This document shows, in pieces, positions 6,640 through 19,511 of a stretch of 20,576 nucleotides of DNA. The position numbers were made by a program, and so were the translations under genes. This stretch comes from a virus. Under the pieces are notes generated by a model, which searched no databases, had not been told where the DNA came from, and saw nothing but the letters and a program-made list of their open reading frames with translations. Location of the stretch: IMG/VR virus record IMGVR_UViG_3300033145_000922, positions 1-20,576 of that record, one strand, 5' to 3'. Position 1 is the first letter of the stretch, and every line of letters begins with the position of its first letter.

Positions 6640-7206
6640 TTGAAAACATGTGTAATTATAGCAGGAGGGCCGTCTCTGGTTAGGGAGGATGTCTCTCTGG
6701 CAGAGCGGTCAACCTGGATGATTATGGGTGTAAACAACGCTTTTAAGATTTGTGAGAAATTAGACTACTGGTATGCTTGTGACGCTGCTTTTTGGAAACG
6801 AAACAAGGGCGGACTCGGTGTTCAAGTTAAAAAGTATTCTTTAGAGCAGACTCCCTACACGGATGTTTTTTGTCTTACTAATTCAGGTGTGACCGGGGTT
6901 TCAATCGATTGGCCGTGTCTGAAAACAGGCGGAAACAGTGGCTATCAGGCAATTAATTTAGCGGTCTTGCTGGGGTTCAGGAAGATTGTCCTCTTGGGTT
7001 ACGATATGCAAAGAACTTATGGGAAAGCCCACTGGCATGAAGACCATAAAGGGAATAACCCCACGGACAACAGTCTAAAAAGGTGGGTTGACGAGTACAA
7101 CAACTTAGCTGTCATATTAGATGGGATCGGGGTAGAGGTGCTCAACGCGTCACGAGAAACAGCGTTAAAGTGTTTTAAAAAAGTTTCTTTAGGAGCTGTA
7201 TTATGA
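6640..7206 (+). CDS. MptE/DUF115-like protein (Rossmann-type, accessory)
   Basis: This 188-residue protein shows hallmarks of the 6-hydroxymethylpterin pyrophosphokinase MptE-like/DUF115 group, which also includes motility-associated and sialyltransferase-like proteins. The hallmarks are GGPSL at 9-13 after a beta strand (CVIIA), NNAF at 32-35, GGNSGYQAINLAVLLG at 97-112 and IVLLGYDM at 116-123, followed by a histidine cluster HWHEDH at 131-136. The fold probably binds a nucleotide or nucleotide-sugar. The true reaction is unknown; family members have been linked to pterin diphosphate transfer and to flagellin glycosylation. It starts at TTG, directly abutting the previous stop, and overlaps the next gene as ATGA. 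Its GC (about 47% in two counted lines) resembles the phage core more than the three genes after it. Confidence 0.7.
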   Translation: MKTCVIIAGGPSLVREDVSLAERSTWMIMGVNNAFKICEKLDYWYACDAAFWKRNKGGLGVQVKKYSLEQTPYTDVFCLTNSGVTGVSIDWPCLKTGGNSGYQAINLAVLLGFRKIVLLGYDMQRTYGKAHWHEDHKGNNPTDNSLKRWVDEYNNLAVILDGIGVEVLNASRETALKCFKKVSLGAVL

Positions 7207-7769
7207 GTCGTGGATACTCTCAAGCTCTTGAAAGCAGAGGCGAAGAAGTTTTAAGACGTTTATCTGGGGTCGAAGCTCCTGTTGTTGTTGAGATCGGGGT
7301 TGCAACCGGCAAACTATCAAGGTTTTTGCTTAAAAAAAGAAATGATTTAATTTTGTACATGGTTGATAATTGGTTGCCGCAAGAAAAACAGCCTGTAAGT
7401 TATGTTGCTACAAATGATAGCAATTCTCAATTGACTGAACATGCTCAAGTGGATCGGAGACAATGTGCTTTGACCGTCAAAAATTCTTTTTCAGACAGGG
7501 CAGATATTTTAAATATGAATTCGGTTGATGCAGCGCAAATAATACAAAATGGAATTGATCTTGTTTTTTTGGATGCGGATCATTCTTATTCTGGTGTCAC
7601 TGCCGATATTCTTGCCTGGAAAGGAAAAGTAAAAAAAGGAGGGTGGCTTGGCGGACATGATTATAAAAACTTTGATTCTCGGTTTAATTTTGAAGTGACT
7701 AAAGCCGTAGACGATTTGTTTCCTTTAATAGAAATTGGTGCAAATTATACATGGTGGGTTTTAAGGTGA
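7203..7769 (+). CDS. Class I SAM-dependent methyltransferase
   Basis: This 188-residue protein fits a Rossmann-fold methyltransferase of the Methyltransf_24 type. Motif I is VVEIGVATG at 28-36. Asp55 in LYMVDNW sits where the SAM ribose-binding acidic residue is expected. DLVFLDADHSYSGV at 119-132 is the motif IV region, followed by KVKKGGWLGGHDY at 142-154. The DADH...GGHDY pattern is shared with small methyltransferases encoded in polysaccharide clusters, so a sugar or glycan acceptor is plausible, but this is inferred. Downstream and upstream genes overlap it (ATGA before, GTGA after), so it is probably translationally coupled to both. It is AT-rich (about 30% GC in one counted line). Confidence 0.8.
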   Translation: MSRGYSQALESRGEEVLRRLSGVEAPVVVEIGVATGKLSRFLLKKRNDLILYMVDNWLPQEKQPVSYVATNDSNSQLTEHAQVDRRQCALTVKNSFSDRADILNMNSVDAAQIIQNGIDLVFLDADHSYSGVTADILAWKGKVKKGGWLGGHDYKNFDSRFNFEVTKAVDDLFPLIEIGANYTWWVLR

Positions 7770-8326
7770 TTTTGGCTGATAAATATATATTCGTACATGT
7801 CCCTAAGACTGGCGGTCAGTCTATTTCCAGGGCGTTGGGTGGGAAAACCCAAGATATTGCGACCCATACACCTTTGTCTGCTGTAGACAAAGACAATAGG
7901 TTTGCTTTTGGGTTTGTCCGTAATCCTTGGGATCGTATGGTTAGCTTGTATTGTTTTCTTTGTCAAAAAACTTTTAAAGTCACGGATAATTTTAATCAAA
8001 AAGAAGTGAAAAAGGCTGGATTTAAAAAATGGCTTATGCAATATGAATTTTATATGCAGGAGGATTGTTTGAGGGAAGGGTTGCAACCCATGCAGAGGCG
8101 GACACAGCTTTTTTGGTTGAGAAATTGTGACTATGTCGGGATGTTGGAACGTATAGAAAATGATTTTAAAATCGCCTGTAAATTAGCAAGTATTAAACAA
8201 GAGACACTACCACATGTCAACAAGACTGAACGTGGTGTGTATCAGCAATATTATGACAATAAAAGCCGAGAGCATGTGGCAAAATTTTTTGAGCCGGAAA
8301 TAACAAAATTTGGATATTTATTTTGA
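7766..8326 (+). CDS. Sulfotransferase family protein (Sulfotransfer_2-like)
   Basis: This 186-residue protein is a predicted PAPS-dependent sulfotransferase, which would move sulfate onto a hydroxyl, typically of a carbohydrate. YIFVHVPKTGGQSI at 7-20 is the 5'-phosphosulfate-binding loop with Lys14. FGFVRNPWDRMVSLY at 48-62 is the 3'-phosphate-binding segment, with Arg52 and Ser60 in the expected places. Its length is at the short end for this family, whose phage and bacterial members are often about 200 residues. I chose GTG 7766, which overlaps the previous stop as GTGA and has GGTGGG six bases upstream. ATG 7751 would add five residues and overlap 19 bases. The gene is AT-rich (about 30% GC in two counted lines). 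Confidence 0.8.
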   Translation: MILADKYIFVHVPKTGGQSISRALGGKTQDIATHTPLSAVDKDNRFAFGFVRNPWDRMVSLYCFLCQKTFKVTDNFNQKEVKKAGFKKWLMQYEFYMQEDCLREGLQPMQRRTQLFWLRNCDYVGMLERIENDFKIACKLASIKQETLPHVNKTERGVYQQYYDNKSREHVAKFFEPEITKFGYLF

Positions 8327-8889
8327 AACTCATAACAGTAAATAAATCCGGGGGTGTTTATAGGCCTGAACATACGGACAGGCTGGAAAGTCAATGTAAA
8401 AAGTTTGCTCCTGGTGTTGAATTTGTTTGCTTGGATGATAGTAATTTATTACATAATTGGCCAGGCTGGTGGTCAAAGATGGAAACATTTAGATTTTTGG
8501 GGCCTGTCCTCTACCTTGATTTAAGCAATACAATTATCAATGATCTAAAACCATTACTTTATATCGCTAAAAAACATTCATTTGTTGTTACTAAAGATTT
8601 TAATTTTCCTCAAAGGCTTGTTCAAAGTTGTATAATGTCCTGGGCTGGGGACATGAGATGGCTGTATGAAAAGTTCTTAAAAACCCCCAGTGCTTATATA
8701 GAAACATATAAAACACCAGATCGCTGGGGTGATCAAGGGTTTATTGAAGTTCATGCCAACACGTGGAAATACTGGCAGGATATCTTACCGGAATCTGTCT
8801 GCAGCTACAAAAAAAACAAGATTATTCCTGATAATTGCAGGATTATTAATTTTCATGGAAAGCCTAAACCTTGGGAGGTTAAAAATTGA
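8323..8889 (+). CDS. Glycosyltransferase-like protein with altered DXD
   Basis: This 188-residue protein resembles small GT-A-type glycosyltransferases found in phages and surface-sugar clusters. Recognisable parts are the N-terminal MKLITVN strand, WPGWWSKMETFRF at 46-58, PVLYLDLSNTII at 61-72, DRWGDQGF at 133-140 and the C-terminal INFHGKPKPWEV at 175-186. The site that is normally Asp-x-Asp, binding the metal and nucleotide-sugar, reads Asp66-Leu-Ser68, so metal-dependent catalysis may be weakened or altered. It starts at TTG overlapping the previous stop as TTGA, with GGAT about eight bases upstream. It is the most AT-rich gene here (about 23-28% GC in two counted lines). Donor and acceptor cannot be read from the sequence. 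Confidence 0.7.
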   Translation: MKLITVNKSGGVYRPEHTDRLESQCKKFAPGVEFVCLDDSNLLHNWPGWWSKMETFRFLGPVLYLDLSNTIINDLKPLLYIAKKHSFVVTKDFNFPQRLVQSCIMSWAGDMRWLYEKFLKTPSAYIETYKTPDRWGDQGFIEVHANTWKYWQDILPESVCSYKKNKIIPDNCRIINFHGKPKPWEVKN

Positions 8890-11115: not shown

Positions 11116-11526
11116 ATGGGGCTATTAAAAAAAGATCAAGTGCTCGCTTTCAAACTGTCGCCGGAAATTCAGACGTTCCTTTCCAAAACATTAGCTGGGG
11201 AGGTTAGTTTTAAGCGGATGACCGCAGCCGGGAATTACGCTATTGAGAGTTACACCACTATTTTCAATGATGATGGGAGCTATGAACGGAACTTTACGCA
11301 CCTCAAAGCAGCCATGGTAGCTTTTTCGATGGTAGATGGTGATGGTAACTTGTTTTGGGAGCAGGGAGATATAAAGGGGGCCTTAACTGAGTTCTCCCAG
11401 GAGGTGATTGACGAACTGTTTAATTTTGCAACGGAAGTTAACCCCGCTTTACCCGGTAAAAACAATGAAAAAGAAGATGCTGAGGATCTTGAAAAAAACC
11501 AGGAAGGGTCTTCGAGTACCGATTAG
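11116..11526 (+). CDS. Tail assembly chaperone, short form (lambda gpG-like)
   Basis: This 136-residue protein is read without frameshifting and occupies the slot of the lambda gpG-type chaperone, which coats the tape measure before tube assembly. It has no strong family motif I can name, and the call rests on position between tail tube and tape measure, on size, and on the frameshift signal near its end. Its tail is acidic and flexible (NNEKEDAEDLEKNQEG), as is common at the G/T junction. AAGGGGTG just before ATG 11116 gives a good ribosome binding site. The zero-frame stop is TAG 11524-11526, 25 bases after the slippery site ends. Confidence 0.83.
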   Translation: MGLLKKDQVLAFKLSPEIQTFLSKTLAGEVSFKRMTAAGNYAIESYTTIFNDDGSYERNFTHLKAAMVAFSMVDGDGNLFWEQGDIKGALTEFSQEVIDELFNFATEVNPALPGKNNEKEDAEDLEKNQEGSSSTD

Positions 11527-11816
11527 CCCTGGCACTGGGCAAGACCCGAAAAGAGTTGTTGGCGGGGCTGGATATATACGAGCTACAGGAATGGCAGTTG
11601 TTTTGGGATATAGAGGGCGGTTTTGGTGATATGAAAAGGGATTTGTTTTTTGGGCAACTCTGTTGTTTGCTTGCGAATATTCACCGAAACCCGAAAAAAC
11701 AGGCTCCTTTCAACCTTGAGGATTTTACGTTGAGGCCGAGAAAAGGACGCAGTAAAAATAACACAAAAAAGATCAGAAGTATATTAGAAGCGTTGACTGG
11801 GGTGAAGAATGGCTAA
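11116..11816 (+). CDS. Tail assembly chaperone, -1 frameshift fusion (gpGT-like)
   Basis: This is the longer product, made when ribosomes slip back one base at 11493-11499. It has 128 residues from the first frame, then 105 from the -1 frame starting with CCA at 11499, giving about 233 residues in all. The -1 frame is closed by TGA at 11490-11492 and opens exactly at the slippery site. It encodes RLALALGKTRKELLAGLDIYELQEW, which looks like a genuine folded domain of the gpT/GTA-adjacent type. The frame has no convincing separate start; TTG 11556 lies inside this conserved stretch. Its last eight bases overlap the tape measure start. By analogy with lambda, the fusion would recruit tail tube subunits to the tape measure. 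Confidence 0.82.
11493..11547 (+). promoter_or_regulatory. -1 programmed ribosomal frameshift signal
   Basis: The heptamer A AAA AAC (11493-11499) lies in the correct phase: zero-frame codons are AAA 11494-11496 and AAC 11497-11499. A six-base spacer, CAGGAA, follows. GGGTCTT at 11506-11512 then pairs perfectly with AAGACCC at 11541-11547. A second hairpin, GCCC (11526-11529) with GGGC (11537-11540) and a seven-base loop, stacks directly against the 3' strand of the outer stem. The layout of slippery site, short spacer and structure is classic. A local alternative hairpin, GAAG/CTTC around 11503-11513, would compete. Confidence 0.85.
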
Positions 11817-13908
11817 AAGTAATGATATAGGCTCGCTTGTTACTAATTTACAGCTCAATGACGCAAAGTTTCATAAAGACATGAAACGGGCTACGGTTGG
11901 TGTTCGGTCTTTTTCGGCCAAAACAAACAAGTTCCTTGCGCGGGCGGAAAGGGGCTGGAAAAGCTTTTCCAGGTCAGTGGGTAGTATCACCAAAAAACTA
12001 CACCCTCTGAAAATGGCATTAGGCGCGGTGGCCGGTGTTGGGGCGATGGGATATTTAATAAAATCGTCTATGAACACAGCAGACGCAATCGGGAAAGCGG
12101 CAGATCGTATCGGGATATCAACTGATGCGTTGCAAGAATACCGTCATGCGGCTGGGTTAGCAGGGATCGATTTGAGTGTGCTTGAGTCTGGGTTGGAAGC
12201 CTTTACGAAGCGGATAGGTGAAGCACGCCAGGGGACGGGTGCTATGGCGACGTACCTCGCAAAATATAATGAGGGGTTATTGGATAGCATTGTGAACGCC
12301 GGCTCCACTTCTGATGCGTTAAGCCTGCTTTTCACCGAGATGTCTAACATGTCGAGCGCGAGTGACAAGGCGGCTTTGTCAGCGGCGGCTTTTTCAAGGT
12401 CTGCCGGATTAAAAATGACGCTCCTCGTAAAGGGAGGTATCGCTGGGCTTACCGGTACGTTGAAAGAAGCTCGTGATTACGGATTAATCGTCAGTGAAAA
12501 AGTAATTCGTGATTCTGAATTAGCAAATGATAAGATGGCAACTGTTTTGGCGGCGGTCAAGGCCAAATTTGTCGAAATGGCGGCGTCTTTTGCTCCGGCA
12601 GTGACAGAAATAAGCGAACGTTTTTTGAACTGGATTAAAGAAAATAAAGAGGCAATAGAAAGCAAACTAAAAGATTTACAAAAATATGTTGTTGACTCCG
12701 TTAATGGGATTGTTGGGGCTTTTAAGCTGATGTCCGGGGGAGAGCTTATCCCGAAACTTGATGCCAGCAATCTTGAGACATTCTCAATTACTGCGGCAAA
12801 TACGGCTATATCTGTCTTGGGTCTGGCTCAGTCATTCCTCCGGCTTTCTAATGCCATGAGTGTTTTCGACTCACCTACGAAAAAGGGGCGGGCACGAATT
12901 GGAGCAGTCGTTAATGAGCAAACGGCAAAATACCTTAAGAGTATAGGGAAACGAGCAGAAGCATCGGGAGATACAGAGAAAGCCAGAGAGTTCTACAAGA
13001 GAGCGTCTGCCGCTGGCCAGGTAGCCGTTGATTTTCGAAACCAGTTAGTATCACTGGCTGAACCGATAGACGCCGCTAACCGGAAGATAGCGGAATACCA
13101 GACTAAAATAGATGCATTATCTCAACACATTGTCCAGGCCCATGAAAAAACGGCGGTAGCTGGAACAAAAGCAAAGGAACATATAGAGGAAGTCATCCGT
13201 GTTATTAATGGCACGCCGGTGACGATGTACATTAACGTTAGTGATGCCTTAAAATCAGTAGATAAAGTAGATAAGGCATTTGATCGGTTGAAAAAAAAGA
13301 TATCAACAATCAATTCCAATGTCAAAATGACAGGAGAGGCCTCAAGCAGAAAACCGCTCACGGAAAAAATCAACGATGTGCTGGACTTATATAAGCTTTT
13401 CCCGGAGCAAATGAAATTAGGGATCGACATGACTTCTCTTTCCGGGGCTTATGCGGCCTTGGAAAAAATACCTGCGAAGCTAAAACTATATGAGACTGTG
13501 AGAAGCACTGCTATAAGTGCTGAGGAAAGTCTGGCCAGGGGAGTAAAAAGGCAAGGCTCTGCTATCCACTGGGGGAATCTGCGCGCGAGAAGCACGAGTT
13601 ATCGGAGGAAGAGAGAGTCCGCTGAAGTGGACATCGAAGCGTACACCACGATGCGGCAGGGTCTCCTTAGCATGATCGAAAGCGGATATTATAACCGGGG
13701 TGGTTCCCCGGGCCTCCAGGATGGGGGAGGAACGCAGCCTGCCCGGCTCAACATCGGCCCAGTCACCGTGACTGTTTCTGGCACGGGGGGGGATAGAGAC
13801 CTCGCAATATCTCTCGCTGACGAACTGGATCATGAAATTGCTAATAAAATAATACATAACAGATCAGAGATAACGGCGGCACTGGGGATAACAAATGTCA
13901 GCAATTAA
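11809..13908 (+). CDS. Tail tape measure protein
   Basis: This 699-residue protein sets tail length and is held inside the tube before ejection. It is mostly helical with long Ala/Lys/Glu-rich stretches. A hydrophobic segment at about 69-84 (MALGAVAGVGAMGYLI) is typical of tape measures that later contact the host membrane. ADAIGKAADRIGISTDALQEYRHAA at about 91-115 is a widely shared tape-measure motif, and NIGPVTVTVSG near the C-terminus is also characteristic. It is a short member of the class; if one residue spans about 0.15 nm, as in studied siphophages, the tail would be roughly 100 nm, which is an estimate. GGGGTGA at 11799-11805 provides the ribosome binding site. Confidence 0.9.
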   Translation: MAKSNDIGSLVTNLQLNDAKFHKDMKRATVGVRSFSAKTNKFLARAERGWKSFSRSVGSITKKLHPLKMALGAVAGVGAMGYLIKSSMNTADAIGKAADRIGISTDALQEYRHAAGLAGIDLSVLESGLEAFTKRIGEARQGTGAMATYLAKYNEGLLDSIVNAGSTSDALSLLFTEMSNMSSASDKAALSAAAFSRSAGLKMTLLVKGGIAGLTGTLKEARDYGLIVSEKVIRDSELANDKMATVLAAVKAKFVEMAASFAPAVTEISERFLNWIKENKEAIESKLKDLQKYVVDSVNGIVGAFKLMSGGELIPKLDASNLETFSITAANTAISVLGLAQSFLRLSNAMSVFDSPTKKGRARIGAVVNEQTAKYLKSIGKRAEASGDTEKAREFYKRASAAGQVAVDFRNQLVSLAEPIDAANRKIAEYQTKIDALSQHIVQAHEKTAVAGTKAKEHIEEVIRVINGTPVTMYINVSDALKSVDKVDKAFDRLKKKISTINSNVKMTGEASSRKPLTEKINDVLDLYKLFPEQMKLGIDMTSLSGAYAALEKIPAKLKLYETVRSTAISAEESLARGVKRQGSAIHWGNLRARSTSYRRKRESAEVDIEAYTTMRQGLLSMIESGYYNRGGSPGLQDGGGTQPARLNIGPVTVTVSGTGGDRDLAISLADELDHEIANKIIHNRSEITAALGITNVSN

Positions 13909-17504: not shown

Positions 17505-19511
17505 ATGGCATCTGCTCGCAGACTCGGCGCAAATTACGGCACTCCTGCCACTTATGGCATAGGCAAGAATTATAATGACTTTGCTACTTGGGAAGCGGCC
17601 ACAGATATTGATCTTGTGACGGATCAAGTTTCAAAAGTCCTCGATGTGGATGCAGGGTCGTGGGACGATAGCATGGCAATGGAGATGCCGGATGCGGCCT
17701 ATTCCGATTCTACATATTTCAGGACTGTCAGAGCCGCTTCGGGTGATGGACATTCGGGGATTATAAAAACTGACGGAACAGTCGCTCATGTTAGAGCGAG
17801 TGACGCATGGAAATGCATTATTATCAAAGAAAGATACGCTCAAGTACAAGATCTTGTAATCACAAACTCGAATGCGTCTTTTAATGGTGGATTGATATAC
17901 TTTACTACTGATGCTATCGGTGCGGCCTTCGTTGGATGTTTATGTGATACAGACGGGGGGTCAAGCACTGAGCAAGGGGTCTTATCTGACAGTCGGACAG
18001 ATGCAGGTTCAGCTTTCGTAATTGATTGCATTATCGCTAACACTGTTGGTACAGGCGTCGCTGGTGGTAGTGGAATACTGGATGTAAAGAACACAACTGT
18101 TGATAATTGTGGTGGTACATGGGGTTTTAGCGAGGGTAGCAGTGGCACACTGATTGCTGTTAATTGTATTTGCCGAAATTCCGGTTCTTCTGGGGATTAT
18201 GATTCAGATGCAGCGTTAACTAAATGTGCGTCTTCTGATGACACTGGATCAACAGGCCTGATAAACCTGACTTTTGATTTCGTTAATGCCGCAGGTGGTG
18301 ATTATCATCTTGATACTGGCTCTCCTGGTATTGGAGAGGGGGACGACCTCTCGGCTACCGGGAATTATGAGTTCGATGATGATGTTGATGGAGATACTAT
18401 CTCTGGAGATTGGAATTGTGGGGCGGATTGGTTCTCATCTGGTCCCACTTACACGCTCACATCAGCCGCAGGCACTTTTACTTTAACCGGGGCAGTTGCG
18501 AATCTCTTAAAAAACCATGTTTTATCAGCAGGGTCTGGCAGTTACGCCTTATCCGGCACTGATGCGGGATTGTTGCATGGTAGAGTTTTAACAACAAGCG
18601 TAGGGGTTTTTACACTATCTGGCACTAATGCAGATTTATTACATGATAGGGTTTTAAATGCTGGGATTGGTAGTTTTGGTTTGTCTGGCACGAACGCAGG
18701 GCTGCTTTATAACAGGGTTTTTAATGTAGACGCTGGCAGTTTTATTTTATCCGGCACAGTAGCAACCTTATTACATGACAGAGTCTTATCGGCCGAAACT
18801 GGTGGCTTTTCTTTAGCTGGCACAGAGGTTACGTTCTTTTACGGGGCCACTTATATTTTAGTGGCTGACGCTGGCAGCTATGTTTTGTCAGGCATAAATG
18901 CAGATTTATTTCATAATCGAGTTTTAACCGCAGTTTCCGGCAGCTATGTTTTGACAGGAGCTGACGCAGAGTTGCTACATGGCAGGGTCTTATCGGCTGG
19001 TATTGGCAGTCTTGTTTTATCCGGCACTGATGCGGGATTATTACATGATAGAGTGTTGTCTGTTAATGTAGGGGTTTTTAACCTGGCCGGTACGGCAGCA
19101 AGCTTATTGCGCAACTATGTTTTGCCTGCTGATGCTGGCAGTTTTATTTTAACTGGCACTGATCCAGACTTATTACATAATCGAGTTTTATCGGCTGGAT
19201 CAGGCAGTTTTATTTTATCTGGAACCGATATTTCATTTGTTTACGGAATAGCTTATATTTTAACGGCTGATTCAGGTAGTTTTGCTTTATCTGGCACAGC
19301 AGCAGACTTATTGCATAATCGAGTTTTAACGGCAGACGCTGGGCTTTTTGTTTTATCCGGCACGGCAGTTGTTTTTGTTTCTTCTGATGTACCTTCAGGG
19401 ATAGTTACTGTCGCTTTTACACCGTCACAACTGATTGTCTCATTTACGGTTACAGCCCCGAAGGTTTCTTCTACGTCATTGTCACCGGGAATAACTTTTA
19501 CTAACAATTAA
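17505..19511 (+). CDS. Tail fibre: beta-helix-like region plus 22-residue repeats
   Basis: This 668-residue protein is a likely receptor-binding fibre. An N-terminal segment (YGIGKNYNDFATWEAATDID) resembles the start of phage and bacterial parallel beta-helix proteins. Residues about 100-310 look beta-helical (DLVITNSNASFNGG, AFVGCLCDTDG, CIIANTVGTGV, LDVKNTTVDNCGG, LIAVNCICRNSG), and end in the CGADWF-type closing motif common to such proteins. Residues 317-628 are fourteen tandem units with the pattern VLxAxxGSFxLSGTxAxLLHxR. The last 40 residues are a short beta-rich tail. At least ten Cys lie in the beta-helix part and none in the repeats. A GAGG lies at 17490-17493. Attachment of the repeat region to host surface is inferred. 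Confidence 0.75.
   Translation: MASARRLGANYGTPATYGIGKNYNDFATWEAATDIDLVTDQVSKVLDVDAGSWDDSMAMEMPDAAYSDSTYFRTVRAASGDGHSGIIKTDGTVAHVRASDAWKCIIIKERYAQVQDLVITNSNASFNGGLIYFTTDAIGAAFVGCLCDTDGGSSTEQGVLSDSRTDAGSAFVIDCIIANTVGTGVAGGSGILDVKNTTVDNCGGTWGFSEGSSGTLIAVNCICRNSGSSGDYDSDAALTKCASSDDTGSTGLINLTFDFVNAAGGDYHLDTGSPGIGEGDDLSATGNYEFDDDVDGDTISGDWNCGADWFSSGPTYTLTSAAGTFTLTGAVANLLKNHVLSAGSGSYALSGTDAGLLHGRVLTTSVGVFTLSGTNADLLHDRVLNAGIGSFGLSGTNAGLLYNRVFNVDAGSFILSGTVATLLHDRVLSAETGGFSLAGTEVTFFYGATYILVADAGSYVLSGINADLFHNRVLTAVSGSYVLTGADAELLHGRVLSAGIGSLVLSGTDAGLLHDRVLSVNVGVFNLAGTAASLLRNYVLPADAGSFILTGTDPDLLHNRVLSAGSGSFILSGTDISFVYGIAYILTADSGSFALSGTAADLLHNRVLTADAGLFVLSGTAVVFVSSDVPSGIVTVAFTPSQLIVSFTVTAPKVSSTSLSPGITFTNN
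18453..19388 (+). repeat. Fourteen 66-72 bp coding repeats with a 402-bp super-period
   Basis: Fourteen tandem units encode residues 317-628 of the fibre. Twelve are 22 residues long. Units 6 and 12 are 24 residues long and end differently (VTFFYGATY and ISFVYGIAY). This divides the array into two blocks of six units, 18453-18854 and 18855-19256, each 134 codons, plus two final units. The frame is kept throughout and there are no spacers. Identity is high enough at DNA level for units 2 and 9 to share more than 20 identical bases. Confidence 0.9.

Follow-up and report, generated by a model that had tools for sequence, protein, structure and literature searches.

Does the overlap between two candidate tail assembly chaperone genes of a virus carry a programmed −1 frameshift signal, and is the stem just downstream of the slip site part of that signal or a side effect of the codons in which it lies? 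We addressed this question in the whole 20,576-base IMG/VR virus record IMGVR_UViG_3300033145_000922, hereafter named the window. The main survey is reportedly that of Xu et al. 2004. In lambda, the G-T frameshift and its conservation are established, and the gpG:gpGT ratio is crucial for tail assembly (passages of PMC5009743).

Two chaperone frames and the heptamer at their overlap

The window has the gene order of a siphophage head-tail region: small and large terminase, portal, protease, capsid, head-tail connectors, tail tube, G/T and tape measure. The tail tube protein gene adjoins the G/T pair (phrog_158, E 2.2e-12). The G-like chaperone gene is thus found 3' of the tail tube gene and 5' of the tape measure gene, as in the lambda-type order, and the tape measure protein is the expected client of the chaperones. 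Searches for close relatives of the window found none with the whole fusion protein, none above 80% identity and no nucleotide match among phages; the tape measure protein gave one weak match only.

Elsewhere in the window, four genes in the interval from capsid to head-tail adaptor (6640-8889) resemble a glycan-modifying set. This location is unusual for such genes, which are possibly involved in virion decoration. A 668-aa protein (17505-19511) contains, from a by-eye reading of the ORF list, many imperfect repeats like GSFxLSGTxAxLLHxRVL; it has no PHROG match, and the search for tandem repeats in the DNA was also empty, none being reported. The first ORF (34-723) has no Pfam match at E 0.01.

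Both halves of the predicted product match known chaperone families (Table 1), as the first-pass annotation had proposed for these genes. Against Pfam, G reached Phage_TAC_13 at E 0.097 only and missed the cut-off. The heptamer A AAA AAC is in the right phase, the 0-frame codons at the slip site being GAA AAA AAC (AAA AAC at 11494-11499). Base by base, the −1 frame opens right after TGA 11490-11492, precisely where the annotation had placed it, and stays open to 11813. The predicted G-T fusion has 233 aa with its junction at N128/P129, which are indeed the residues named at first. As in lambda-type cassettes, the overlapping −1 ORF carries a T domain and has no good start of its own. The only start codon listed for the T frame, TTG 11556, is inside the conserved part; initiation there would lose the conserved FxxRLALALGKT start of T, which counts for entry by frameshifting.

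T homologues were gathered from phages, plasmids, viral contigs and genomes, and 156 loci were scanned. The T frame was found in 141 of them with a profile built in the analysis, and the RLA..LG anchor in 140 (L013, without anchor, was dropped). At 85% identity, the 140 anchored loci formed 104 groups including the window (L001), with 36 near-copies merged. An in-phase heptamer precedes the anchor in 98 of the 104 representatives: AAAAAAC in 66, GGGAAAC in 15, AAAAAAA in 8 and others in 9. As a background, in-phase X XXA/T heptamers occur at 40 of 9193 positions in the rest of the T frame. The distance from the heptamer to the anchor (RLALALG codons) is 39 nt in 69 representatives, 42 in 16, 36 in 9, 33 in 2, 48 in 1 and 27 in a single one, the window. 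No recognised heptamer was present in 6 of the 104 representatives. Eight loci lack a heptamer. Two of them, L072 and L145, start only at the junction, so that their heptamer may simply be cut off, and both were merged into heptamer-bearing groups. A further genome profile search returned 26 loci, repeats of earlier loci included, which are outside every count. Most of them have the heptamer; it is absent in L190 and L192, and occurs only out of place in L191 and L197.

As a separate observation, a 0-frame stop directly follows the heptamer in 31 of the 104 representatives, for example L038, so that G ends at the slip site.

At the overlap, relatives hence conserve an X XXY YYZ heptamer in phase, as in lambda-type cassettes, and this pattern appears to be the conservation of a programmed site. 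The first-pass annotation had staked its reading on such conservation, which is borne out, in the right phase, by 98 of the 104 non-redundant sequences. Together with the known chaperone families, this strongly supports frameshifting. From its sequence, the locus is very probably an ordinary −1 programmed ribosomal frameshift cassette of the lambda gpG/gpGT type, a known type.

Table 1 Features of the window around the G/T junction, and the glycan-type gene set
Feature	Position	Strand	Basis or remark
Glycan-type gene set	6640-8889		MptE-like/sialyltransferase-like phrog_4603; methyltransferase PF13578; sulfotransferase PF03567; glycosyltransferase phrog_1962
Gene G, tail assembly chaperone, 0-frame product, 136 aa	11116-11526	+	ORF; phrog_344 E 6.2e-7
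Weak Shine-Dalgarno-like GAGGA, 6-7 nt upstream of heptamer	11482-11486	+	sequence
TGA closing the −1 frame, directly 5' of slip site	11490-11492	+	sequence
Slippery heptamer A AAA AAC	11493-11499	+	in phase; position kept in 98/104 representatives
−1 frame T domain, 107 aa + stop, predicted to be reached via frameshifting	11493-11816	+	PF06223 Phage_tail_T E 4.8e-10; phrog_337 E 9.6e-14
6-nt spacer	11500-11505	+	sequence; commonest spacing in relatives 5-7 nt
5' arm of outer stem, GGGTCTT	11506-11512	+	sequence; fold
TAG, 0-frame stop	11524-11526	+	begins 25 nt past heptamer
Inner 4-bp hairpin, GCCC 11526-11529 / GGGC 11537-11540	11526-11540	+	fold; pairing probability about 0.5; codons A-L-A-L-G
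3' arm of outer stem, AAGACCC	11541-11547	+	sequence; fold; codons K-T-R
Tape measure protein gene	11809-13908	+	phrog_8125 E 6e-29; start overlaps T-frame end

The window's stem and its base pairs

The six-base spacer, the perfect 7-bp stem and the enclosed second 4-bp hairpin described in the first-pass annotation are all present as sequence, the two outer arms being exactly complementary. However, the nested arrangement had been called unusually clean, which overstates it. The minimum free energy structure of a 61-nt segment differs from the two-stem picture, with six of the seven outer pairs and an extra 3-bp hairpin (11512-11514/11520-11522) in addition to the inner one, and the fold is no better than dinucleotide shuffles (z −0.70; 46/200 as good). 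A 181-nt segment gave z −0.43 (63/200 as good). With synonymous-codon shuffles, which keep the T protein and the codon set, the window reached z −1.24 (14/100 as good) and −1.54 (8/100). The pairing probability of the outer stem was 1.0 in segment 11500-11560, 0.01 in 11500-11580, 0.75 in 11500-11600 and 0.00 in 11440-11620. With 20 nt more downstream, 11523-11530 pairs with 11564-11571 and the outer stem is displaced. Rfam gave no match at gathering scores, and no copy of the exact heptamer-spacer-stem pattern was found in viral contigs.

On one reading, the frameshift is real but the stem would be a functionless by-product of the RVF and KTR/ALALG codons, the heptamer alone slipping enough; in favour of this, the fold does not exceed shuffles and a competing fold exists. 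Similarly, the inner arms lie on conserved codons, and the inner hairpin appears largely dictated by Ala-Leu-Ala-Leu-Gly. We regard this explanation as a serious contender, somewhat short of an even chance. Against it, only 2.1% of 1000 codon shuffles of the window yield a perfect stem with 7 or more bp whose spacer is 4-9. Taken alone, the window's stem is weakly above chance.

The other point in favour of a by-product is the lack of pair-by-pair conservation, as analysed in a gapless block of 45 nt, from the RxF codons to KTx, in 103 relatives. The window's outer pairs form in 34.4% of cells versus 32.3% after shuffling, a level reached by 9/2000 shuffles with relatedness uncontrolled. The inner pairs form in 63.8% of cells versus 63.2% and give no signal; their frequency in relatives comes from the position of the hairpin on the Ala-Leu-Ala-Leu-Gly codons. 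The outer excess is small and the inner one is nothing, so that covariation of both stems, the check first suggested for them, fails. In a fixed register, columns 13-17/53-57 and 19-25/46-52 of the 69 sequences at distance 39 were not above shuffling (z 0.9 each), for which a six-base periodicity of the 3' side is partly responsible, and no consensus structure emerged from RNAalifold. A single conserved helix was rejected on these two results. For this reason, the spacing of the stem was tested instead.

On the upstream side, the GAGGA element is a possible minor stimulator. A Shine-Dalgarno-like 4-mer is kept in 53% of the codon shuffles of the window, and the element is not significant alone. 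Across relatives, such 4-mers occur at a gap of 5-9 upstream of the heptamer in 53 of 107 sequences versus 40.0 in codon shuffles (z 3.8), most of the signal coming from the amino acids of the Glu-rich end of G.

Stem spacing across relatives

In structure-stimulated −1 frameshifting, the downstream stem is located about 5-8 nt from the slip site. The window's spacer is 6 nt, and relatives peak at 5-7. In 98 representatives, the 60 nt just after the heptamer have a mean fold z of −1.68 under the dinucleotide null, with 54% below −1.5. At other positions, the mean z is about 0 to −0.7 nearly everywhere, and the overlapping segments at −15 and +5 give −1.02 and −1.17. Stems were counted in 109 sequences, namely the 98 representatives, window included, and 11 added short-junction relatives. 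With the codon-preserving null, the mean z in this set is −1.35 after the heptamer versus −0.34 to −0.41 further down. The earlier statement that many siphophages have no clear downstream structure is thus unfit for this chaperone family, where structure is enriched under both nulls.

A perfect stem with 7 or more bp and a start 4-9 nt past the heptamer was found in 24 of the 109 sequences versus 4.1% expected. By exact spacer, 5, 6 and 7 nt account for 8, 9 and 7 stems, and a second rise is seen at 9, 10 and 11 nt (5, 5 and 8). Applied 90 nt further downstream, this test found 10/107, which exceeds the codon null; hence the null is somewhat lenient, and relative to real coding sequence the enrichment shrinks from 5-fold to about 2.4-fold. 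A second set of 53 further non-redundant viral relatives, from which 27 duplicates had been removed first, showed stems by the same length and spacer criterion in 17 sequences versus 3.3% under the null. Across all spacers, nearly all stem starts in this set lie 3-14 nt past the heptamer, 6 nt being the commonest, and the range 15-34 is empty. This set was chosen by AAAAAAC at distance 39 and is therefore no test of the heptamer. That both sets of relatives are strongly enriched in stems at the window's spacing argues against a mere by-product of coding.

Several of the distance-39 relatives have their 5' arm on the variable E-R-P-E-R codons, with the A-L-A-L codons as the 3' arm. Across relatives, the position of the stem seems to be kept while its pairing partners drift, and the window's stem would be the local version of this common feature, not an unusual extra.

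The junction of the window is about 12 nt shorter than that of most relatives between the heptamer and RxF (KKPGRVF versus KKLxxRPERxF), so that the usual 5' arm is missing. The window's stem is built on the RVF and KTR codons, still 6 nt past the heptamer. In a relative at distance 30 (L166), a stem of 10 bp begins at spacer 7 and, as in the window, its 3' arm is beyond the anchor. Two more relatives at distance 27 (L175 and L178) were found by pattern. By eye, L178 could pair GACGGT/ACCGTC at the window's spacing, a reading that differs from the predicted fold; it is not among the 109 sequences counted, as the contig ends within its T frame. No such stem was found in L175. A common origin of the three distance-27 junctions is unsupported by the tree (94 columns, poor support).

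That the window swapped one stem for another is a fair inference, short of demonstration. We tentatively propose, at rather less than even confidence, that selection keeps a stem about 6 nt past the slip site while the pairing partners turn over, and that the window rebuilt its stem from RVF and KTR, which would be compensation by shape and not by base-pair covariation. Should this pattern hold across the family, frameshift stimulators here would escape ordinary covariation tests, since the pairs change at a constant spacing; a spacing-based, codon-preserving test finds such stems. We found no report of such a spacing peak in the literature searched, outside which most subscription papers fell. 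Overall, the spacing result for the family is what deserves to be retained, and the window by itself is an ordinary, well-formed example.

Proposed mechanism and comparison with known systems

In the proposed mechanism, most ribosomes would read gene G to its TAG and release the 136-aa protein. At A AAA AAC, a minority would move one base backwards, with tRNA-Lys and tRNA-Asn now paired to AAA AAA, and translation in the −1 frame would then yield the G-T fusion of 233 aa. On the lambda model, the tape measure protein would be coated by G, and the tail tube protein would be recruited through the T part. We lean slightly towards a role of the stem in pausing the ribosome and setting the ratio of the two products.

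Alternatively, a pseudoknot could stimulate slippage if the loop (about 11523-11530) paired with 11564-11571 with the outer stem still formed. This loop-downstream duplex has a probability of 0.88-0.96 in four segments tried and 0.22 in one, but it competes with the outer stem in nested folding. Moreover, relatives show no enrichment of such loop-downstream pairing (n=82/162, mean z −0.03; window z −1.28), the remaining sequences being left out for want of a 6-bp stem, a loop or enough downstream sequence. A pseudoknot is thus unlikely.

A switch of frame by transcriptional slippage on the run of seven A at 11492-11498 is very improbable in spite of the length of that run, because GGGAAAC, without a long homopolymer, occupies the same place in 15/104 representatives and A runs rarely exceed seven: they are 6 or 7 long in 134 of 140 six-A sites (162 sequences), and 6 reach 8-9. 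The strict conservation of phase also disfavours it. Two separate genes or a sequencing error, with no fusion, can hardly be credited: relatives are often annotated as two ORFs, but in many phyla the two frames are found with this same offset and a heptamer between them, and one named relative, Dubu, is annotated as a joined gene.

Ribosomal frameshifting at the heptamer, the preferred reading, can be compared with known systems. Frameshifting of 6-7% is given for two tail-chaperone genes in passages of PMC3711429. PRFect uses downstream folding energy as one feature, with no clear peak in its sweep of window sizes and offsets as described in passages of PMC10885494. Structures are often, not always, found downstream of such sites, according to passages of PMC3483164 on the Burkholderia phages KL1 and AH2. 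In both phages, a frameshift is likewise predicted in the G-T tail genes, and mfold predicts stem-loops downstream of it. Unlike the window, they have different heptamers, and their structures are single folds, with no null model in those passages. In KL1, GGGAAAC lies directly before the stop, like the 31 representatives mentioned above, whereas the stop of the window starts 25 nt later.

The E. coli dnaX and IS911 signals share with the window an A-rich heptamer and a downstream stem-loop, and dnaX an upstream Shine-Dalgarno-like element (passages of PMC5009743), a likeness that carries no claim of homology. In contrast with the window, with its weak GAGGA at a gap of 6-7 nt and its 6-7 bp stem, dnaX has A AAA AAG, a Shine-Dalgarno element about 10 nt upstream (10 nt in the same passages) and an 11-bp stem. 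Lambda gpG/gpGT is alike in gene order, in the chaperone pair with a −1 slip near the end of G, in T fused to G and in the tape measure gene that comes next (passages of PMC5009743). On the other hand, the lambda slip site is G GGA AAG (passages of PMC7618472), while the window has A AAA AAC followed by a predicted stem 6 nt downstream.
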